IMG/VR virus record: IMGVR_UViG_3300013093_000281
Span: 1 to 23,697 of that record
Direction: 5' to 3' (one strand)
From: a virus
Length of the DNA stretch: 23,697 bases
Positions 2,653-16,980 of this stretch are shown one piece after another. The notes under the pieces are model-generated. The model was not told where the DNA came from. It made no database searches and was given only the letters and a program-made list of their open reading frames with translations. Each line of letters starts with the position of its first letter. Positions within the stretch are counted from its first letter, which is position 1. The position numbers and the translations under genes are program-made.

Positions 2653-2862
2653 TTAGCTCAATTTTGCGACCAGATCCTCGTAAGTGAGGATCTCCACGCC
2701 GGCTTTCCTGGCTGCTTCCATTTTGGAAGAGTTGGAGTTCAGAGAATCCGTGAGCAAGTATTTAGCTTCCTTGAGAGGTTTGTGAACGTATCCATGAGAA
2801 GCCAGGAACTTGATGAGATCGCTCTTAACTTTGAAACCTGCATCCTTTGGTGACCCGGTCAT
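2653..2862 (-). pseudogene. Displaced original C-terminal tail of DNA ligase (BRCT fragment)
   Basis: A 69-residue frame that matches the last 72 residues of the ligase gene at 3576: about 46 identities, including VKSD, KYLLTDSL, SNSSKMEAARK and TYED. It is the C-terminal BRCT domain. Its ATG corresponds to the internal Met of the ligase phrase FEMTG, and it overlaps the endonuclease stop (ATGA, 2859-2862). Its base usage (for example TCCTCACTTACGAGGATCTG) is like the ligase body, whereas the tail now attached to the ligase is AT-rich. I infer this is the ancestral ligA 3' end, displaced by endonuclease insertion. It could still be made as a free BRCT peptide by coupling to the endonuclease stop. 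Confidence 0.85.
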
Positions 2863-3527
2863 ATAAACCTAAAAATTTTTCCTTTATAATCTTTTCTTTT
2901 TCCTCTGCATACATCTGCTATAGCTCTTCTTGCTACATTTGGGTTTTCAAATTGTTTGGCAGCTTCACTTGCACTATTATAGATATTTCCATCTTGGTCT
3001 CTTATCTTTAAAGCATTAGTAGGAGAAATCCCGCTTCTAGTAGAAAATCTACTCATATCTCCAGTATGTTTTTTCCCATAAAAAGAATTAGATTCTCCAA
3101 AATGTGAATAGTTACTCTTAGGTTTTTTTTCTTTTTCAGGAAAGACTTTTTTTATTCCCTCTTTGATTTTTTCTTTGTGCATTTCGGATAATTTTTTCCC
3201 TTTTCTGGCTTCAGATATTTTCTTACCTCTTTTTTCTTTCTGTTCTTCACTAAGAAAATCTCCACCTTGACCACCAGAAGCTATGTTATATCCTATTTTT
3301 TTATCCCTGGAATTTAACTTTTTTATCCAAAAAATTTCCCTTTCGTTTAATTTTTCTTTATCTTCTATAAAATTTTCTAAAATTTCTTTTTGAAAATTTT
3401 CGATTCCATATTTTTTAATGGCAGCTATCAGTACTAAACCGCTGCCAAAATATCTAGGGTTATACTTTAATTCTTGCCCAACGTAAATTTTACCGTTTAC
3501 GTTATTAGTAATCTTATAGATAAGCAT
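2859..3527 (-). CDS. GIY-YIG homing endonuclease with NUMOD3 and NUMOD1 DNA-binding modules
   Basis: A free-standing homing endonuclease of 222 residues. The N-terminal nuclease starts IYKITNNVNGKIYVG (residues 3-17), the GIY...YIG signature with IYK replacing GIY. FGSG (27-30) and KLNEREIFWI (59-68, candidate metal-binding Glu) complete the domain. Residues 101-124 (KKISEARKGKKLSEMHKEKI) are a NUMOD3 motif. Residues 174-222 (DQDGNIYNSASEAAKQF, then VCRGKRKDYKGKIFRF) are a NUMOD1/IENR1 helix-turn-helix. This is the modular plan of I-TevI and Seg enzymes. It would cut ligA alleles lacking the insertion. Much more AT-rich than ligA, consistent with transfer. Start follows a hairpin carrying TATAAATA. 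Confidence 0.92.
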   Translation of the reverse strand: MLIYKITNNVNGKIYVGQELKYNPRYFGSGLVLIAAIKKYGIENFQKEILENFIEDKEKLNEREIFWIKKLNSRDKKIGYNIASGGQGGDFLSEEQKEKRGKKISEARKGKKLSEMHKEKIKEGIKKVFPEKEKKPKSNYSHFGESNSFYGKKHTGDMSRFSTRSGISPTNALKIRDQDGNIYNSASEAAKQFENPNVARRAIADVCRGKRKDYKGKIFRFI

Positions 3528-3543
3528 GTTTGATTTATTGTTT

Positions 3544-3564
3544 ATCTATTTATATAGAATAGAT
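3544..3564 (-). promoter_or_regulatory. Hairpin with late-promoter-like loop before the GIY-YIG gene
   Basis: Plus-strand ATCTATT (3544-3550) and AATAGAT (3558-3564) form a perfect 7-bp stem around TATATAG. Read on the minus strand the loop and right arm spell TATATAAATAG, containing the T4 late consensus TATAAATA. It lies 17 nt before ATG 3527. Confidence 0.5.
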
Positions 3565-3575
3565 GACAAGATGTC

Positions 3576-5459
3576 CTAAATTTCTCCAATATTTTTCAAA
3601 AAGTCTTCATAAGTAATGATCTCTACTTTGTTTTTTCTAGCTGCTTCCATTTTCGAAGAATTTGAAGTTAAAGAATCTGTCAATAAATATTTAGACTCTT
3701 TAAGAGTCTTATGAACAAATCCATGTTTGGCTGCAACTTTTATGAAATCTGATTTTACTTTAATGAGATCAGTTTGAAATGGTTTTCCGGTCATTTCGAA
3801 TCCAATTCCGTTGAGAACATCCACTTCCTTCTCTATCTGGATACCTCTATCTTCTAGGAGCTTGGTGAACTTTTCAACTTTGAGTCTTTTCTTAGTGCCT
3901 GGTTCGAAACCAGCCACTGCTTTCTTCTCCAGACCTGAGAAGGAGTAGTCCATTCCTGAGATCATCCTGGCCAATTGCTTGGAAGCAGTATTTCCAATCT
4001 TGTCAAATCCAAGAGATAGGATCACTTTGAAATGAGGAATGATCTTCACTTTTTCCACTTCCGCTACCAGAGAATCCAGAGTTTTACCTTCCTTGAAGTA
4101 TCCAGTGGAGATCAGATTCTGTTTGTTGAATTTTTCCGGATCGAAGATGTCCATGACTGATCGGTAACCGGCATCGTAGAGATTCTTGCAAGTTACTGAA
4201 CCGAACTTATCGAATTTGAGAACTCGGATAGCAGTTAGGAACTTTTTGAACATTTTTCCTTCGCATTCGTCATTCGGACAAAGAAGGTGTATGCCTTCGA
4301 TTTCCACCGGTCCACCGCATGAAGGGCAAGTCTTAGGAGCATTGAAGAGTGAGAGGTCTCCCTGTTTGATCACTTTCATGATCTGAGGAATGATGTCTCC
4401 GGATTTGGCTATGACCACTTCAGCGCCTGGGTAGATTTTTTCCTTGAGAATGTATCCGTAATTGAAAGCTGCTACATTTCTCACTGTTGTGCCATCCAGA
4501 TCGATAGGTTCCAAAGTGGCAATGGGAGTGATGTTACCTGAAGTACCGATGTTCCATTTGAATCCTGAGATCCGAGTGATAGCTTCCTTGGGTGGAAATT
4601 TCACGGCTATGGCCCAGTTGGGGTGATGTCCTTTTTCACCAAGAGTTTTTCTCAAAGATTCAGGAGATTTGACTACAAAACCATCCAATTGGAAAGGTGA
4701 GGTCTTTTCTCTGTAGTCTTTCATCCGATTGTAAGTATCCACAAACTCGGATGCTTTGAATGTCTGGAAATACGCATGCTTTGTGTTGAAGCCTTGTGCT
4801 TTCAACCAACCTTGAGTATCGTTGGGATAATCGTAATCTCCATCGTGAATCCTGACCTCCACTGCCATGAACTCTATCTCATCCAGGAGATCCTGGTTGC
4901 TCTCATCCTTGTTGAGGAATCCAGCCACAAAGTTTCTGGGATTCTTGAAATGTGAGTATTTGGCATAGAAGATTTCAGTTGGAATGACCACTTCTCCACG
5001 AATTTCTACATCATTGGTGATACCGTTGAGAAGAAGTGGAACTTTACGAAGAAGCTTGGAAGTTACGTCCCGGCCTTTAGCTTTATCACCACGAGTGATT
5101 CCCTGAGATAGTTTTCCGTTCTTATAGACTAAGTTAACTGCATTACCATCATACTTGGGTGTGGCTTCGAATTGAGTATCCTGAGGAAACCCTGAGAACC
5201 AAGAATTCATCTGTTCCAGTGGAAGAGTTCCATCCAGAAGAGCTTGAGCTTTTGCCAGAGATAGCATCGGAGAAAGATGCTGGTGTTTCAGGTTACGATC
5301 TCCATAACCCACCATTTCCGTAACTTCGGAATCGTTTTCCTTGAGCTCCTGTTCCAGACGATCGAATTCATCATCCGACATAATTTCCTCGCCTTTGTAG
5401 TAAGCTTCTTTGGCCTGTAGATAAAGTTCCTCGAGTTCCTGTAACCGTTGTTTGTCCAT
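3576..5459 (-). CDS. ligA: NAD+-dependent DNA ligase
   Basis: Seals nicks using NAD+. 627 residues against about 670 for bacterial LigA, with nearly all parts present. Domain Ia: AYYKGEEIMSDDEFDRL (19-35). Adenylation: PKYDG with nucleophile K102, RGE (154-156), NPRNFVAG (173-180), DGFVVK (259-264), VKFPP (286-290). OB fold: GTSGNITPIATLEP. Zinc finger: C378, C381, C394, C399. Helix-hairpin-helix region and C-terminal BRCT (about 553-627). From M556 onward the DNA turns AT-rich: this tail came with the downstream endonuclease, and the older tail survives at 2653-2862. A host-type promoter lies at 5478-5505. T4 itself uses an ATP ligase, so an NAD+ enzyme marks a different phage lineage. Confidence 0.97.
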   Translation of the reverse strand: MDKQRLQELEELYLQAKEAYYKGEEIMSDDEFDRLEQELKENDSEVTEMVGYGDRNLKHQHLSPMLSLAKAQALLDGTLPLEQMNSWFSGFPQDTQFEATPKYDGNAVNLVYKNGKLSQGITRGDKAKGRDVTSKLLRKVPLLLNGITNDVEIRGEVVIPTEIFYAKYSHFKNPRNFVAGFLNKDESNQDLLDEIEFMAVEVRIHDGDYDYPNDTQGWLKAQGFNTKHAYFQTFKASEFVDTYNRMKDYREKTSPFQLDGFVVKSPESLRKTLGEKGHHPNWAIAVKFPPKEAITRISGFKWNIGTSGNITPIATLEPIDLDGTTVRNVAAFNYGYILKEKIYPGAEVVIAKSGDIIPQIMKVIKQGDLSLFNAPKTCPSCGGPVEIEGIHLLCPNDECEGKMFKKFLTAIRVLKFDKFGSVTCKNLYDAGYRSVMDIFDPEKFNKQNLISTGYFKEGKTLDSLVAEVEKVKIIPHFKVILSLGFDKIGNTASKQLARMISGMDYSFSGLEKKAVAGFEPGTKKRLKVEKFTKLLEDRGIQIEKEVDVLNGIGFEMTGKPFQTDLIKVKSDFIKVAAKHGFVHKTLKESKYLLTDSLTSNSSKMEAARKNKVEIITYEDFLKNIGEI

Positions 5460-9538: not shown

Positions 9539-11278
9539 TTAGGATCCGCAGGCTAGACAATCTTCAGGATTGTCCAAGCTACAGGATACTGCATCCATCA
9601 CAGAGTATTCTTCAACGAGAACTTGAGGTTTCTGAACTGAGCTGAGATCCACTCCCAGGCCTGCCAGAGCTTCGGTAGCAGCTTTGGTTCTCAAGTAGTA
9701 CATTCCAGTCTTAAGACCCTTTTTCCAAGCGTGGAAGTGTGCAGCTGTTAATTTAGCAGCATTGACTCCTTCGATGAAGAGGTTCAAGCTTTGAGACTGG
9801 TCGATGAAAGCTCCACGATCAGCCGACATGTCTATGAGATCTCTCTGTTTGAGTTCCCATACAGTCATGTAGAGCTGTTTGATATCAGTGGGTATCTCCA
9901 TGATGCTCTGCACGGAACCCTTAGCGGAGATCAGTCTCAATCTCATCTCCTCTGACCAGAGATTTCTGTTGATCAGATCTTCCACTAGATGCTTGTTGAC
10001 TAGTGTGTATTCTCCAGCCAGTGTTCTTCTCTTGTAGAGATTGGTGGTGAAGGGTTCGAAAGCTTCATTGTTTCCAAGAATCTGTGCAGTCGAAGCTGTT
10101 GGCATCGGCGCTACAAGAAGCGAATTTCTCACGCCATGCTTAGCAATCTTCTCTCTTAGAGATTTCCAATCCCATCTTTCAGAAGGAGATTCATCCCACA
10201 TATCGAACTGTAGGATACCCTTGGAGATTGGAGATCCCTTGTAAGTTTCGTAAGTACCTTCTTTCACTGCTATGTCGCAAGAGGCGCTCAATGCTGCATA
10301 GTAGATAGTTTCAAAGATGTCCCTGTTGAGTTTCTTTGCTTCCGGTGAGGTGAAGGGTAGTCCCAGTATAGCAAACGTGTCAGCCAATCCCTGGATTCCC
10401 AAACCCACTGGTCTGTGTCTCATGTTGGATTTTCTAGCTTCCTTCACTGGATAGTAGTTGACATCTATGACTTTGTTCAAGTTCTTAGTAGCCTGGTATG
10501 TGACTTCGTAGAGCTTGTTAAAGTCGAAACTTCTCTTTGTCTTATCGTTGCTCTTTCTATTTGGAGGATAAGTGATGTACTTAGGAAGAGCTAATGAAGC
10601 TAAGTTGCATACAGCTATCTCATCCGGAGAAGTGAACTCCATGATCTCCGTGCATAGATTGCTACCTTTCAGAGTTCCCAGATTTTTCTGGTTGTTCTTT
10701 CTGTTAGCGCTGTCCTTGTAGAGCATGTAGGGTGTTCCAGTCTCAATCTGAGACTCCACAATTTTTTCCCAAAGTTCTCTAGCTCTAACCGTCTTTCTAC
10801 CTCTTCCCTCTTTTTCGTACTTTTCGTAGAGTTTTTCAAATTCCTCTCCGTAACATTCTTCCATACCAGGTGCTTCATCCGGAGAGAAGAGTGTCCAGTC
10901 TCTATCTTCCTCCACTCTTCTCATGAAGAGATCCGAGATCCAGAGTGCCAGGAAAAGATCTCTAGCTCTAAGCTCCTCCTTGCCGTGATTCTTTCTGAGA
11001 TCGATGAAATCGAAAATGTCTGCGTGCCATGGTTCCAAGTAGATAGCGATCGAACCCTTTCTCTTGCCACCACCATTATGAACATATCCGACATTAGAAA
11101 GATGATAATTTTCGTTTAAAGAAATTTTCAAATCGAAAACTTTTAAATTTTCCACCTTCTCAACTTCTATTTCTTCAATTTCGGAAAAAAAAGAGTGTTT
11201 TTTATCAATTCCGAGATCGATGAGCGGGCTTTCGACGTAAGGAATATTAAAATCTTCCATATCTAATTTTTTATTCAT
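9539..11278 (-). CDS. nrdA: Split intein C-half fused to class Ia ribonucleotide reductase large subunit, C-terminal part
   Basis: Residues 1-68 are the intein C-half: block [19 protein letters not shown] and block G YVHN, ending at Asn68. The extein starts [17 protein letters not shown] and covers the last 511 residues of the reductase: NLCTE (Cys209 and Glu211, equivalents of E. coli Cys439 and Glu441), Cys224 (the Cys462 partner), [18 protein letters not shown], and the C-terminal shuttle CLAC (Cys574, Cys577). Joined to the N-part this makes 799 residues, a normal NrdA length. The +1 residue after Asn68 is Gly, not Cys, Ser or Thr, so ordinary splicing should fail; the DNA reads CAT AAT GGT GGT GGC. 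ATG 11278 overlaps the endonuclease stop by eight nt. Confidence 0.95.
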
Positions 11279-12248
11279 ATTTCATAATTATTTTTTCAGT
11301 TTTTCCATCGGTTCTGAAAATCCAGAACATAAAATTAATCTTTTGTTTTATGACAGCAAAAGATTTTAACAGACTGGTATTTTCATAATCTTCTATCATG
11401 CCTCTTTTGTTAAAAGTCCAATCGCTCTTTACTTCGACAATTAAATTCTCGGATTTAATGTAAATATCCGGCAAGTATTTTCTGATTTTTCCATCAGCGG
11501 TCTTGTAAGAAATAGTTCCTATGTGCTTTCTTATTTCAAAATCATCTATCAATAAGTCATCTTCTTTATATAAAGTTAAAAGTTCTTTTAAGACTAAATT
11601 CTCAAATCCTTGTGTTTTGATGACTAGACCGGATGGTAATGTGAAAGGTTTTCTTTTTCCGCTACAGTTCCATAAAATATGATAGCATTGTTTATCTCCA
11701 CAAGAATTACAAAAATTACCTCTAACATCTTGAAGTTTGACTTGTTTTCCACATCTACATCTAGGAATCTCAGAGATTCCATGTTTCAATGCATAAATCC
11801 TATGTCTAAGAGAAGGATTTAAATCATCTAAAAATGATGTCTTTTTTTCCAGCTCTTTTATAATTTCTTCAAATCTATCATGACATTGTATGAGTTGAGA
11901 TATTTTTCCAGCATCATCTTCAATGCCAGAAAATTTTTCGAAAATTTTCTCTATGTATTTCTTTGAGTCAAATTTGTAATAGTTAAGTTTAAGTTCATTC
12001 ACATCTTCCAGAAAATTGACTGAAATGCCCTTGGAAAAACCTCTGAATATCTGTTTTTTTCCGTTTTGTACTAACGGAAGCTTTTTATATCTAAAATAGT
12101 AACATTTTTCAAAAAAAGAGAAAAATTCAAACTCATTTTGTTTAGCATAGTCCATGATTTTCTCATAAATCTCTGGGTTATGTTTTTTGACATAAAATGC
12201 CTTTTTATTATTTCCAGCTTTATCATTTACCCATATATCTTCTGTCAT
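11271..12248 (-). CDS. PD-(D/E)xK / Vsr-like homing endonuclease in the split intein
   Basis: A 325-residue free-standing endonuclease. N-terminal half: possible DNA-recognition region ([19 protein letters not shown]) and a zinc-ribbon-like cluster C164, C166, C180, C183. C-terminal half: nuclease with [13 protein letters not shown] (Glu216), RKYLPDIYI (Asp261) and [11 protein letters not shown] (Glu272, Lys274), the E...PD...ExK order seen in Vsr-like endonucleases. Endonucleases of that type occur between halves of split inteins. It would cut nrdA lacking the insertion. Unlike its neighbours it has a strong Shine-Dalgarno sequence (AGGAGG, six nt before ATG) buried in a 14-bp hairpin (12248-12291). 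AT-rich, consistent with recent transfer. The exact catalytic set needs a family alignment. Confidence 0.85.
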
Positions 12249-12291
12249 TTTCTTCCTCCTTTTTCTTTTATATATTCAAGGAGGAAGAAAA
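12248..12291 (-). promoter_or_regulatory. Translation-control hairpin hiding a Shine-Dalgarno, with late-promoter-like loop
   Basis: TTTTCTTCCTCCTT (minus 12291-12278) pairs perfectly over 14 bp with AAGGAGGAAGAAAA (12261-12248). The right arm holds AAGGAGG and the A of the endonuclease ATG. The 16-nt loop GAATATATAAAAGAAA contains the nrdA-N stop TAA (12270-12268) and a TATATAAAAG box. Read-through mRNA would mask the start; a transcript starting from the loop would expose it. Confidence 0.8.
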
Positions 12292-13422
12292 AATTCTATC
12301 AGTTTTCAAAAGGTTTTTAGCTTCTATCCAGTCTATTTCTTCATTTTTTCGTTTGACTAAAAATAAATGCTCCGGAGTCACTCTTATAGTTTTACCGTTT
12401 ATTTTTAGAACAATCAACTCTCCAGTGTAACTATATTCCTTACGTTCTAAAACTTCCTGATAAGTATTATCGTGAGTTAATACTTTGTCTCCAGAGCTTA
12501 TTTCTGATATCTTTTTTGACCCTTCCGTGGTGTCAATTTCTGTTTCTTCAGTGAAACATTGATCCACTGCTCGAGCCATCTCATTGAAGATCTTCAGAAA
12601 AGGGATGATGCCGTTGGAAACACCGTTAGTGCCCTTGATGTATGCACCTGAAGCTCTCATCTTGTGCCAATGAATTCCGATTCCTCCTGCGTTCTTTGAG
12701 ATCAGAGAAGCATTTTTCAGAGTATCGAAGATTCCCTCTATGGAATCTTCTTTCAGATCCAGGAGAAAGCAGGAAGAGAGTTGGGGTCTCCTGGTTCCGG
12801 AATTGAAAAGCGTGGGAGTAGCATGAGTGAAGTAACCGTTAGAAAGAAGTTCGTATGTCTTGATAGTCTCTTCCAGGTTACCTGACCAGATTCCACAAGC
12901 TACTCTCATCCACATATGTTGGGGTCTTTCCACCACTTTACCTTCGATTTTCAGAAGATAAGATTTTTCCAGAGTCTTGTAACCGAAGTAATCAAAGTTA
13001 AAATCTCTATCGTAATTGATAGCTTTGTCCAAGACTTCGTGATTTTCCTGAATGTACTTGAAAACTTCAGGATCGATCAGGGATGCTGATTTCCCCGTCT
13101 TACTATCGATGTACTCGTAGAGGTCTTTGATAGTTTCCGAGAAGGATTTCTTGGTGCTCTTATGAAGAGAAGTTACTGCAATCCTACTAGCTAAGATTGC
13201 GTAGTCAGGGTGATAGGAAGTCATGGAAGCAGCTGTTTCCGCTGATAGATCGTCAAGCTCGACCGAAGAAACTCCGTCATAGACTCCTTGGATGACTTTC
13301 TGGGCAACTTCGAAAGAATCCACAAAATTGGAATCCAAACCGTACGTTTGTTTCCTGATTCGTGTGGTTATCTTGTCGTATTTTACAAGCTCTTTTGAGC
13401 CGTCTCTTTTGATAACGTGCAT
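12268..13422 (-). CDS. nrdA: Class Ia ribonucleotide reductase large subunit, N-terminal part, fused to split intein N-half
   Basis: Residues 1-288 are NrdA: an ATP-cone (1 to about 90, starting HVIKRDGSKELVKYDKI), the barrel start with RPQHMWMRVACGI (166-178), THATPTLFNSGTRRPQLSSC (199-218; Cys218 is the E. coli Cys225 equivalent) and ISKNAGGIGIHWHKMRASGA. At 289 an intein begins after MARAVDQ: Cys1 of CFTEETEIDTTEG (block A) and TIRVTPEHLFLV (block B, with the T-x2-H motif). It stops at 12268 after IFSSSLNI. The sequence ([18 protein letters not shown]) is nearer the eukaryote-like class Ia form than E. coli NrdA. Presence of the ATP-cone implies overall activity control by ATP/dATP. Leader is A/T-rich with no Shine-Dalgarno. 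Confidence 0.95.
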   Translation of the reverse strand: MHVIKRDGSKELVKYDKITTRIRKQTYGLDSNFVDSFEVAQKVIQGVYDGVSSVELDDLSAETAASMTSYHPDYAILASRIAVTSLHKSTKKSFSETIKDLYEYIDSKTGKSASLIDPEVFKYIQENHEVLDKAINYDRDFNFDYFGYKTLEKSYLLKIEGKVVERPQHMWMRVACGIWSGNLEETIKTYELLSNGYFTHATPTLFNSGTRRPQLSSCFLLDLKEDSIEGIFDTLKNASLISKNAGGIGIHWHKMRASGAYIKGTNGVSNGIIPFLKIFNEMARAVDQCFTEETEIDTTEGSKKISEISSGDKVLTHDNTYQEVLERKEYSYTGELIVLKINGKTIRVTPEHLFLVKRKNEEIDWIEAKNLLKTDRIFSSSLNI

Positions 13423-13451: not shown

Positions 13452-13514
13452 TTAGAAATCCTCGTTGAAAGAAAAAGTGTCCTGGTCATTCTTATTGATG
13501 ACTCCTGCTTTCAT
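13452..13514 (-). pseudogene. Displaced original C-terminal tail of nrdB (20 codons)
   Basis: A 20-residue frame, MKAGVINKNDQDTFSFNEDF, matches the end of the neighbouring NrdB ([20 protein letters not shown]). Its ATG overlaps the stop of the HNH endonuclease (ATGA, 13511-13514). It is inferred to be the ancestral nrdB 3' end. If translated by coupling, the product would be a free R2 C-terminal peptide, the part of R2 that docks onto R1. Confidence 0.85.
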
Positions 13515-14431
13515 TTACTCTCATTTAGTAATTGATAAAAGTCTTCGATACTAAGCTTTGTCCACCCAGATTTTCCCTGGTTTTCTTTGCACCATAGCAT
13601 TTGAAGATTCTTTTTATCTGATATAAGAACGGGATCTATTTTATTTTTCCAACCTTCAACAATTGGATAAATATGGTCTAGATGCCAACCATTTTTGCTT
13701 CTTCTGTATTTGTTGGGATTTATTTCATAGAAATATTTTCTATAGTTTCTTTCTGTAAAATAACTTACAGCTCTCTTATACCAAAAAAAATCTTCCAATA
13801 ATTCTGGTCTTTTTTTCCAGTCTATGAAAATTCCCCTTTCATACTTAGTCTGAAGTGTCTTTTCTGGAAGACCCTCAATCTTCATTGGATTATCCACTCC
13901 ATATTTTTTTAACCATGTCTCTTTTATTTTGTCTCTTACTTTCTTAGATGAAAATGGATGGCCACCATATCGCTCTTGCCAATTTTTTTTTATTTTATCT
14001 TTTACTTCTTCCGATAGGAATGGATGGCCGCCAAATTTAGTCTTAAATGTCTCTTGAATTTTTTCTTTTAATACGCCATGCGCAATATTTCTATGACCAT
14101 ATTTTTCAGTGCATGTTTTCTCGCATTTCTTTCTGGTTTCTTCATAGTTAGCTGAACATTTAACTGAACAGAAATCGAAAAATCCAAAGGAAAACTGTTT
14201 AAATTTTGTAAGTTTTTCGCAGTTTTTGCATTTTGGCCATTCTTCTAATTCATTAAAGAAACAATAAAGTCTACTACTAAATGGTAGTAATTTTACCCAA
14301 TGATGATCTTCTTCGTACGACAAAAGATCATCATATAATTCTGGGAATCTTTTTTTAAAAGATGAACTGATAGGTTTTATTCCAGAATTTCCCTTTTTCT
14401 GGAAGAATTCGTAACATTCTTGTTTTTCCAT
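13511..14431 (-). CDS. HNH homing endonuclease with zinc ribbon and repeated DNA-binding motifs
   Basis: 306 residues. N-terminal part (FKKRFPELYDDLLSYEEDHH) resembles the start of the endonuclease at 11271. A CxxC...CxxxC ribbon follows (C68, C71, C88, C92). Then come three or four copies of a KYG/KFGGHPF...VKDKIK-type repeat (about 109-196), probably DNA-binding. The nuclease motif is NGWHLDHIYPI (H250, D252, H253), then NLQMLW (N275) and KENQGKSG (N284). Repeats of this kind followed by HNH are familiar from phage endonucleases. It should cut the nrdB end lacking the module. AT-rich. The ATG sits just after GATATATAAAAC. Confidence 0.92.
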   Translation of the reverse strand: MEKQECYEFFQKKGNSGIKPISSSFKKRFPELYDDLLSYEEDHHWVKLLPFSSRLYCFFNELEEWPKCKNCEKLTKFKQFSFGFFDFCSVKCSANYEETRKKCEKTCTEKYGHRNIAHGVLKEKIQETFKTKFGGHPFLSEEVKDKIKKNWQERYGGHPFSSKKVRDKIKETWLKKYGVDNPMKIEGLPEKTLQTKYERGIFIDWKKRPELLEDFFWYKRAVSYFTERNYRKYFYEINPNKYRRSKNGWHLDHIYPIVEGWKNKIDPVLISDKKNLQMLWCKENQGKSGWTKLSIEDFYQLLNESK

Positions 14432-14474: not shown

Positions 14475-15461
14475 TTAAAAATCAGCATCTAGTGAAAATG
14501 TTGTATCTTTATCGTTTCGATTCAACACTCCTGCTTTCTGATACTCTGAATTTCTCTTCTCGAAGAAGTTAGTCTTACCTTCCAGGGCAATGTTTTCCAT
14601 GAAATCAAAGGGATTCTTTGAATGATATTCCTTCTCGTATCCGAGTGAGACGAGAAGCCTGTCAGTAACAAATTCCAAGTACTGCTTCATCAGATCCGAA
14701 TTCATGCCGATCAACCTAACCGGCAGGGCGTCAGTTATGAATTCCTTCTCTATTTCCAAAGCAGAACCCAGAATTTCCAAGATCCTTTTACGTGAAAGTT
14801 TCTGATCAATGTGATTACGGTAGAGTAGACATGCAAAATCGGTATGAAGTCCTTCGTCTCTTGAGATGAGCTCATTGGAAAATGATAGACCGGGCATGAG
14901 TCCTCTTTTCTTTAGCCAGAAAATTGAACAGAAACTTCCGGAGAAGAAGATACCTTCCACAGCAGCGAATGCGACCAGTCTCTCCACGAATTTGGGGCTG
15001 TTGATCCATTTCAATGCCCATTCTGCTTTGCGTTTAACTGCGGGAACTGTATCGATCGCGTTGAAGAGATAGTCCTTCTCGGTAGGATCGGTGATGTATG
15101 TATCGATCAGAAGCGAATAGACTTCTGAGTGTATGTTTTCAACCATGATCTGAAATCCGTAGAAGCAACGGGCTTCGGCGTACTGAACTTCCTGAAGGAA
15201 GTTGACTCCGAGATTTTCATTGACTATACCGTCAGAAGCTGCAAAGAATGCTAGAACATGCTTTACGTAGTGCTTCTCGTTTTCAGTGAGTTTCTCTCTC
15301 CAGTCAGTTAAGTCCTGAGCTAGATCGATTTCCTCAGCAGTCCAGAATGCTGCTTCATGGGTTTTGTAGGCTTGCCAGATGTCATGATGTTTGATGGGGA
15401 ATAGCACGAACCTTGTTGGGTCGTCTTGCAAGATCTTTTCAATTTTTGTTTCTTTTTCCAT
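14475..15461 (-). CDS. nrdB: Class Ia ribonucleotide reductase small subunit
   Basis: Makes and stores the tyrosyl radical that NrdA uses to reduce ribonucleotides. 328 residues. Di-iron ligands by comparison with mouse R2: Asp46 (EEIDLAQD), Glu108 and His111 (ENIHSEVY), Glu169, Glu203 and His206 (RDEGLH); radical Tyr115. The sequence ([20 protein letters not shown]) is eukaryote-like. The last 20 residues, from Lys309, are the replacement tail brought by the HNH module and end TTFSLDADF, almost the mouse R2 tail FTLDADF; the older tail lies at 13452-13514. A terminator (15503-15533) separates it from the polymerase gene. No Shine-Dalgarno sequence. Confidence 0.97.
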
Positions 15462-15594: not shown

Positions 15595-16980
15595 TTACTT
15601 CTCCAGGAGAACTTTGTTCAAAAAATCTATCTCAGTTTCGATGTTCTTGTACTTCTTCTGAGAGTCCTTTCTCTTACCGTAAAAGTCAGCAAGGATGGTT
15701 CTCATCACAGAATCTTCAGAATTATCAAAGACTGCTCCTGATGCAGTAGTTATCCAGCCAGAGTTCTCAGGAATGTCCACGTTCTTTCCTTTGTAGGATT
15801 CCGGAGAAATGTTCCACTGTCTCATGGTGGATGGGTACAGAGATGCAAAGTCAAAGGTAGCTAAGTACTGGTGCAATCCCTTTCTCGGATCTTTCACATA
15901 AGCACCTTCAAAAGATTGTGCTTTGCTGGATTTTTTGGTCTCCGCGATGACTCTCTTTCTCTTGTAGAATTCACGAATCATGTTGCATTCCGTCATCCAG
16001 ATCGGAGAAAAAGCTCGAAGAGCTTCCACTCGAGTCACATTAGCTAACATGAGAAATGTTTGCATGGTGTTGATCTTCTTGTCCAAGAGATACACCAAGT
16101 AAGTATCCACTGCGTTATAGAAAACGTAAGTCTCAAAGTCATTGTTATAGAGATCCTGAAGAGATCCGTTGTACTTGATCTTTTCGATTCCCAGAGCTGC
16201 TTTAGCAACGGTATCAAGTTTGTTGTTTTCCTTGATCTTCACCACTCTATCCCATTTCTTGTAGAGATCCAAGTAGTCGACTACGATCTTGTGCATAGGG
16301 ATCTGATCATCACCCTGAAGAGTTCTGTTCTTGTCCAATGCACAGATGGAGGGATCCACTCCCAATCTCTTGCATCGATTGATCAGATATTTCCAGTCGA
16401 ATCCGATGAAGTTCCATCCGGTGATCAGAGGCGCATCCTTGAACCATTTTCCAAAAAGAGTCATCAGCATCTCTGCTTCCGAGAGAAAGTGAAAGTACTG
16501 AAAGGAAGGATTAGGGTTGTATTCCTTGAGGTGCTCAGTGTAACGTTTCTCTATGTTTCTGATCTGCTGAGGTTCCAATTTCTTAGTTCCGAGAACGTAA
16601 GTCTGTCCCTTGCAAACTAGAGCTACTGCTGTGACGGGAGTCTTTGCTAGAGCTGGATCCGGAAATTCATCGAGAACTTCCACCTCAATATCACAGAACC
16701 AGATCTCAGGGTTGTTGAACTCATAGACGTCTTTCATGTATTCCTCACCGAGTGAGTACAGATACTCCTCGATTCTGAAACGATTCAACCAGTAAGATTT
16801 GACTTTCTTCACGGGTTTACCGTCCCAAGATTGAAAGAAAGGATCCTGTCTTTCGGAACCTGCAGGTTCCCATTTGTATTTTTCAGTGCGAGGAATGGGA
16901 ACTTCCTTGAACTTAATTTTTCCGTCCTTTCCGAAATGCGAAATTCTCAAACGATCGTCTAATTGTTCTATGGAGATCAT
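15595..16980 (-). CDS. 43: Family B DNA polymerase, N-terminal half (gp43-like; exonuclease to motif A)
   Basis: Replicative polymerase piece of 461 residues. Proofreading exonuclease: Exo I FCDIEVE (Asp97, Glu99), Exo II GWNFIGFDWKYL (Asn190, Asp195), Exo III YNAVDTYLV (Tyr288, Asp292). Palm motif A: DFASLYPS (377-384), followed by RQWNISPE as in T4 gp43. The frame ends in KNIETEIDFLNKVLLEK, just before the position where gp43 has the fingers motif KxxxNSxYG; motif B and the DTD motif C are missing here. So the gene is split, like 43A/43B of some Aeromonas phages, and the rest must be elsewhere. No endonuclease follows the break, only a terminator. Preceded by a small membrane-protein gene. 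Confidence 0.95.
   Translation of the reverse strand: MISIEQLDDRLRISHFGKDGKIKFKEVPIPRTEKYKWEPAGSERQDPFFQSWDGKPVKKVKSYWLNRFRIEEYLYSLGEEYMKDVYEFNNPEIWFCDIEVEVLDEFPDPALAKTPVTAVALVCKGQTYVLGTKKLEPQQIRNIEKRYTEHLKEYNPNPSFQYFHFLSEAEMLMTLFGKWFKDAPLITGWNFIGFDWKYLINRCKRLGVDPSICALDKNRTLQGDDQIPMHKIVVDYLDLYKKWDRVVKIKENNKLDTVAKAALGIEKIKYNGSLQDLYNNDFETYVFYNAVDTYLVYLLDKKINTMQTFLMLANVTRVEALRAFSPIWMTECNMIREFYKRKRVIAETKKSSKAQSFEGAYVKDPRKGLHQYLATFDFASLYPSTMRQWNISPESYKGKNVDIPENSGWITTASGAVFDNSEDSVMRTILADFYGKRKDSQKKYKNIETEIDFLNKVLLEK

Follow-up and report, generated by a model that had tools for sequence, protein, structure and literature searches.

A hybrid ligA gene with its native end left behind

In the 23,697-nucleotide (nt) virus sequence IMGVR_UViG_3300013093_000281 (positions 1 to 23,697 of this IMG/VR record, the whole stretch being referred to as the window) the gene for the NAD-dependent DNA ligase, ligA, is a hybrid of a resident body and an AT-rich replacement tail. 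With a probability of about 0.87 we attribute this hybrid to invasion of ligA by a homing cassette, which consists of an endonuclease gene and, upstream of it, a recoded, presumably functional copy of the ligA 3′ end. On the minus strand ligA (5459–3576) and a 48-nt spacer (3575–3528) precede a GIY-YIG endonuclease gene (3527–2859). Behind this gene lie a second ligase tail (2862–2653) and then a NUDIX gene (2615–2184; PF00293), which marks the resident downstream flank. The complete ligase is encoded at 3576–5459 and comprises the resident body (3795–5459, codons 1–555; PF01653, PF03120, phrog_3869) and an AT-rich active tail (3576–3794, codons 556–627), which was delimited by composition, codon-usage change point, alignment and predicted fold.

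An original prediction, made from the sequence alone, had described a second copy of the ligase tail behind the GIY-YIG gene and had assigned to it the base usage of the ligase body. Both statements were confirmed. The second tail is an open frame of 69 codons with resident base usage, and 46 of its 69 residues are identical to the active tail (66.7%, E 1e-19 to 1e-24). The G+C content at third codon positions (GC3) is 0.45 in the ligase body and 0.57 in this left-behind tail, as compared to 0.22 in the active tail and 0.20 in the GIY-YIG gene. A codon-usage model trained on the other genes of the window versus its three AT-rich endonuclease genes placed the change point at ligA codon 555 (window position 3797; permutation p 5e-5), one codon ahead of the border repeat ATGACCGG; with an alternative model, whose training set held two AT-rich endonucleases, it fell at codon 559. 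At codon positions 1, 2 and 3 the two tails agree in 68, 84 and 39% of the nucleotides, and the same codon is used for only 18 of 44 identical residues. Since third positions agree at 39% only, the tails are not a recent tandem copy.

The border repeat ATGACCGG is present on the minus strand at 3787–3794 and at 2855–2862; its plus-strand form CCGGTCAT has no further copy in the window. This octamer encodes a conserved Met-Thr-Gly, and the TGA stop codon of the GIY-YIG gene falls within its second copy. The endonuclease gene codes for 222 amino acids and matches phrog_314 (E 3e-44) and PF01541 (E 8e-4). It carries the GIY-YIG domain with its conserved motif residues: IYK..Y.G, E64 and N81 are invariant across seven homologues. 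Within the spacer ahead of this gene, a sequence match to TATAAATA marks a possible late promoter. The related element TATATAAA, which resembles the T4 late promoter TATAAATA in sequence, is found just upstream of all three endonuclease genes of the window (minus strand, 3556, 14441 and 12274), and the only other copy on this strand, at 11572, is located inside one of the endonuclease genes.

The tail had been labelled as a BRCT domain. Pfam gave no BRCT match in the ligase tail, but the label is supported by structure prediction: an AlphaFold model of the active tail, calculated with relatives as alignment, reached a predicted local distance difference test score (pLDDT) of 88 and supports the BRCT fold. 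The modelled elements follow the order strand-helix-strand-strand-helix-strand-helix of BRCT domains, and the best neighbours in the PDB are BRCT domains and the ligase of phage PR1 (9hu3), with a best E value of 0.011 and template modelling (TM) scores of about 0.6–0.7. As judged from this model, the active tail looks functional.

An endonuclease gene located inside another gene might also indicate a group I intron or an intein, in which case everything between the border and the left-behind tail would be spliced out and the native tail be used; indeed, nrdA in the same window does carry a split intein. The ligase contains no Hint domain, though, and Rfam yielded no match in the whole window and no intron-like match in the module. 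Moreover, the sequence at the start of the supposed intron is homologous to the gene end and leads into a stop codon. Splicing is therefore a very remote explanation.

Relatives identify the native ligase tail

A search with the ligase alignment provided 43 other loci (designated by L numbers, as are the loci of the later screens), while a search at the DNA level with the ligase in phage records gave no match. The nearest ligase relative, L085, is 57% identical over the full length and has no insert; its tail shares 59% identity with the left-behind tail and 43% with the active tail. In an alignment of 23 tails the motif GSP..G[FY] directly follows the border in 21 uninterrupted relatives and in the left-behind tail. 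The active tail alone is devoid of it and reads TGKPFQTDLI, with other conserved positions and the rest of the BRCT-like fold kept. A NUDIX gene immediately follows the ligase in L103 and L110 and is 44% identical to the NUDIX gene behind the left-behind tail. Because of the tail motif of the relatives and this ligase–NUDIX adjacency, the resident end of the gene is the left-behind tail, which still occupies its original position. The prediction that uninterrupted ligases should have tails like that at 2653–2862 and not like that at 3576–3794 was thus borne out, which supports the overall view that the endonuclease arrived together with a substitute 3′ end.

Several observations weigh against this view. 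Most tail scores favour the left-behind tail as the native one, but the distant LR756500, L116 and L119 are slightly nearer to the active tail. In the tree of ligase bodies the window pairs with L085 (support 100), whereas the tail tree groups the two ligA tails as closest to one another with weak support (87/66); because they pair with each other, no distant source of the tail is demonstrated. A search of IMG/VR for the donor of the cassette returned the same virus only. The cassette probably came from a related AT-rich phage or has long been resident in such phages. The ligA case also counts as one event, because the window and IMGVR_UViG_3300013094_000150 are nearly identical and L084 is nearly the same virus. 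The PF01541 match of the endonuclease scores 20.1 bits, under the Pfam cut-off of 22.6. As to the border octamer, the original prediction was right about its presence at both borders, but shuffled sequences had two or more matches to CCGGTCAT in 4 of 100 cases, so that the repeat by itself is weak evidence and not decisive; it gains weight because both copies sit at homologous codons. Finally, a tail copy at this place in phages without endonuclease had been named as an outcome that would speak against the cassette. The closest ligase relatives have no extra tail gene, but in the distant phages L120/L127 (3980–5355) a divergent ligase tail is followed by a canonical tail open reading frame (ORF) with no endonuclease between. 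These two-tail arrangements may be scars or separate BRCT genes.

The pairing of the tails in the tree, taken alone, also fits an in-place tandem duplication of the phage's own ligase tail, after which a free-standing endonuclease gene entered between the two tails and one of them drifted. Besides the low agreement at third codon positions, this scenario has to account for an active tail with the codon usage of the endonuclease and not of the phage, with the change point at the border. The same coincidence would have to be assumed for nrdB, where the arrangement is identical but the endonuclease belongs to another family, and in thyA the gene ends demonstrably move with the endonuclease (both described below). 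Duplication in place is therefore improbable.

It could be asked whether the left-behind tail is a separate functional protein, a small BRCT-like one whose translation would be coupled to the endonuclease stop codon by an ATGA overlap. Its intact 69-codon frame with native base usage and the free-standing BRCT-like ORFs of other phages (L120 and L123–L126, those of L123, at 3980–4291, and L124–L126 having no ligase within reach) are in line with such a role. Nevertheless, the left-behind tail is without the first-strand residues that the free ORFs keep, the corresponding tail at nrdB has merely 20 codons, and the closest relatives are without such an extra gene. We consider a separate protein quite improbable, and it would add to the cassette explanation rather than replace it.

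Since a sharp change of base composition within a gene of a metagenomic contig raises suspicion of misassembly, a chimera of the ligase genes of two phages was considered as well. The same structure is present in IMGVR_UViG_3300013094_000150, which shows one mismatch over 10,459 nt and possibly stems from the same sample. The frames are intact across the joins, and the pattern recurs at nrdB and on many contigs from other samples, which makes an assembly artefact highly implausible.

A second, independent case at nrdB

The window contains a second, independent case, which had been missed by the original prediction. The nrdB gene (15461–14475, minus strand) is followed by a DUF7487-type endonuclease gene unrelated to the GIY-YIG one, a left-behind nrdB tail and nrdA. 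The resident nrdB body (14539–15461; PF00268, phrog_86) ends at a first copy of the 12-nt border repeat GAAAGCAGGAGT (14527–14538), behind which the active replacement tail (14475–14526) has a GC3 of 0.17. The endonuclease gene (13511–14431; PF24308, E 2e-14; phrog_3339, E 6e-18) has a G+C content of 0.31, and its TGA stop codon is completed by the second repeat copy (13501–13512). The left-behind native tail (13452–13514) comprises MKAGVINKNDQDTFSFNEDF and then a stop codon and ends 29 nt before nrdA. Within the window GAAAGCAGGAGT occurs only at the two nrdB borders, with 0 copies expected. When the C-terminus of NrdB was compared to the six-frame translation of the window, the left-behind tail was the best other match (score 64, next 35), and a change in codon usage was located at codon 317/328 (p 0.009).

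Among about 80 nrdB relatives, nearly all have nrdA within about 40 nt and no endonuclease. When its flanks are connected through the 12-nt repeat, the window becomes colinear with L137, L138 and L139.

The left-behind nrdB tail has an ATG of its own, which overlaps the endonuclease stop codon (ATGA), and would encode a 20-residue C-terminal peptide of NrdB. If translated, this peptide could compete for NrdA. The neighbouring nrdA gene (9539–13422) is itself split by a split intein, with the Hint domain at the end of 12268–13422 and the intein C-part at the start of 9539–11278, and another DUF7487/TnsA-like endonuclease gene (11271–12248) lies between the two nrdA parts. We assign this arrangement to the 'fractured gene' type (Dassa et al. 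2009). A single window thereby holds two different solutions for endonucleases in essential genes.

Recurrence in other phages and joint transfer of thyA ends

For a wider screen, the end of the gene beside an endonuclease was compared to the sequence on the other side of the endonuclease (flank test, threshold z ≥ 5). At GIY-YIG loci 14 of 236 tests were positive, against 3 of 547 control tests around other genes; the three control matches were the same virus (L084), a shared N-terminal motif (L123) and one weak match. In total at least 12 other phage loci have the same architecture, mostly mirrored at gene 5′ ends, these counts referring to the loci closest to the query enzymes and not to a frequency for phages in general. 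Thus, the hybrid at ligA is not a one-off, as nrdB and many other phage genes show the same arrangement, more often at the 5′ end.

Convincing 5′ cases are thyA in L008, which was detected by an earlier screen because another gene lies between, IF-3 in L218, NAMPT in L266, a polynucleotide-kinase-like phosphatase in L243 and one conserved gene of unknown function in L229, L235, L262 and L282. L293 is a further 3′ case. Left uncounted as false or unsure were L107 (a chance match of a deoxyribosyltransferase), the 5′ match of L123 (the shared N-terminal motif of small proteins), L194, L012, L223/L226/L228, the weak L236, L279 (possibly a tandem gene copy) and the endonuclease copies L221 and L285. 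In named phage records (eight isolates and LR756500), nine stretches flanking GIY-YIG genes were screened, as were the first 50 kb of T4, and none contained a clear hybrid.

Cases at thyA are found with DUF7487 enzymes (L315, L319) as well as with GIY-YIG enzymes (L330, L360/L362). Five DUF7487 loci (L314, L315, L319, L326, L327) share a nearly identical thyA start. Between L315 and L327 the first 138 nt of thyA are 98% identical, and 434 nt including the endonuclease end are 91% identical, whereas thyA past residue 90 is only 51% identical. The replaced end therefore travels with the endonuclease. Native thyA starts were left behind in L315, L319, L330, L360 and L008, in L315 and L319 on the upstream side. 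In the GIY-YIG cases the remnants stop in or just past the conserved DRTG motif, and the active copies carry TRNG. Among unique starts, TRNG was associated with a neighbouring endonuclease (8 of 23 versus 3 of 37; Fisher p 0.015, kinship uncorrected). As 15 TRNG starts have no adjacent endonuclease, TRNG is also a free allele. In L353 (about 2280–2420) a left-behind thyA start immediately precedes a complete thyA without an endonuclease gene between them, which is likely a scar after loss of the endonuclease.

Proposed homing route and relation to known systems

According to the cassette model, the GIY-YIG enzyme would cut native ligA of a coinfecting phage near the conserved Met-Thr-Gly-Ser-Pro motif. 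The break would be repaired from the cassette-bearing genome, with homology provided by the ligase body and, across the break, by the native tail, and the replacement tail and the endonuclease gene would be copied into the cut ligA together. The ligase would remain complete and presumably functional as a hybrid, the conserved target motif would be gone from the active copy, and the native tail would be left behind, no longer part of the ligase. In its general form, the enzyme would cut a conserved motif near a gene end, and the carried end would rescue the gene, probably making it resistant to cleavage; the loss of the border motif from the active ligase tail and the change from DRTG to TRNG in thyA are indirect signs of such a preference for the native allele. 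It appears likely that, beside intron or intein elements and ordinary free-standing ones, a further type of homing element is widespread in phages, in which endonucleases of diverse families carry recoded, cleavage-resistant 5′ or 3′ gene ends, home into conserved motifs of essential genes, rescue the gene, swap ends between distant phages and leave behind the old end or an endonuclease-free scar.

The closest functional counterpart is found in yeasts of the genera Torulaspora and Lachancea, where the WHO elements of FBA1 combine an endonuclease gene with a host-gene 3′ end located upstream of it (Coughlan et al. 2020, PMC7282813). Experiments showed that on homing the host gene receives the 3′ end of the WHO element and becomes resistant, and that its former end is displaced downstream, with no splicing (PMC7282813). 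Likewise, at ligA and nrdB the endonuclease gene is located directly behind a complete host gene with a non-native end, and the native end lies on the far side. Joint movement of end and endonuclease is seen in the thyA cassettes of L315/L327, no second copy of the ligA cassette having been found. WHO elements, in contrast, reside in yeast nuclear genomes and encode an intein-related endonuclease with a zinc finger, with cutting and allele-specific resistance established by experiment; the present cassettes are from phages, involve GIY-YIG and DUF7487 enzymes and also 5′ ends, and their cutting is predicted from gene structure. Because the enzymes differ, the phage cassettes are not WHO elements by descent, though they would work like them.

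The original prediction had pointed to the hybrid atp6 gene of Allomyces mitochondria, and this comparison is apt, the WHO elements being functionally even closer. Both Allomyces atp6 (Paquin 1994) and Glomus atp6/atp9/cox2/nad3 (PMC3630166) combine a core gene, a foreign C-terminal end, an endonuclease ORF and a left-behind native end, which matches uninterrupted relatives in the fungal mitochondrial hybrids (PMC3630166). These elements belong to fungal mitochondria and mostly encode LAGLIDADG enzymes, with GIY-YIG in Glomus atp9. The mirror form with a replaced 5′ end and the old start upstream, as at the thyA, IF-3 and NAMPT loci, is known from Tremella (PMC7315562), where it was described as introns; the modules of the window are without a detected intron. 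The resemblance to the WHO elements of yeasts and to the mitochondrial hybrids of fungi suggests a repeated independent origin.

In phages, the free-standing Seg and Mob endonucleases of T4 and split genes such as nrdA of phage Aeh1 (PMC2988022) likewise place endonuclease genes beside or inside essential genes, and T4-type endonucleases spread by double-strand break repair with co-conversion (PMC2988022). No replacement or left-behind end is reported for them, however, and two polypeptides result from Aeh1 nrdA as well as from the large subunit of the T4 topoisomerase. Introns, inteins, free-standing genes and split genes are the arrangements listed in a review of T4 and in a 2023 study on endonucleases of phages (PMC2988022, PMC10448857). 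We found no phage case of an endonuclease with a replacement gene end in the literature, of which subscription journals were mostly not covered. To the three ways of living with an essential gene named in reviews (intron, intein, and location beside the gene or splitting it) the cassettes would add a new one, which needs no splicing, restores a single intact protein and can be regarded as the natural equivalent of rescue-type gene drives. Odd chimeric ends, orphan fragments and conflicting trees of phage genes, such as those for ligase, ribonucleotide reductase and thymidylate synthase, would thereby be explained.

Other split or duplicated gene parts

Further arrangements were observed among the ligase loci. 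In L090 (3–305) a left-over ligase 5′ end of about 50 residues is fused to unrelated sequence upstream of a complete ligase, with no recognised endonuclease. The NAD ligase of L081 (4941–8053, LR756500.1), and also that of L307, is split mid-gene by a DUF7487 endonuclease gene, on both sides of which a short stretch (VWVITIKF / LWAIAIKF) is repeated. Halves of a phage NAD ligase with a DUF7487 endonuclease between them are also present in L131 (1668–4711) and L132, and L039 (3171–5592) has a split phage NAD ligase with a GIY-YIG gene in opposite orientation. The family B DNA polymerase of this phage is apparently split into two distant genes (window 15595–16980; L129 920–2095).

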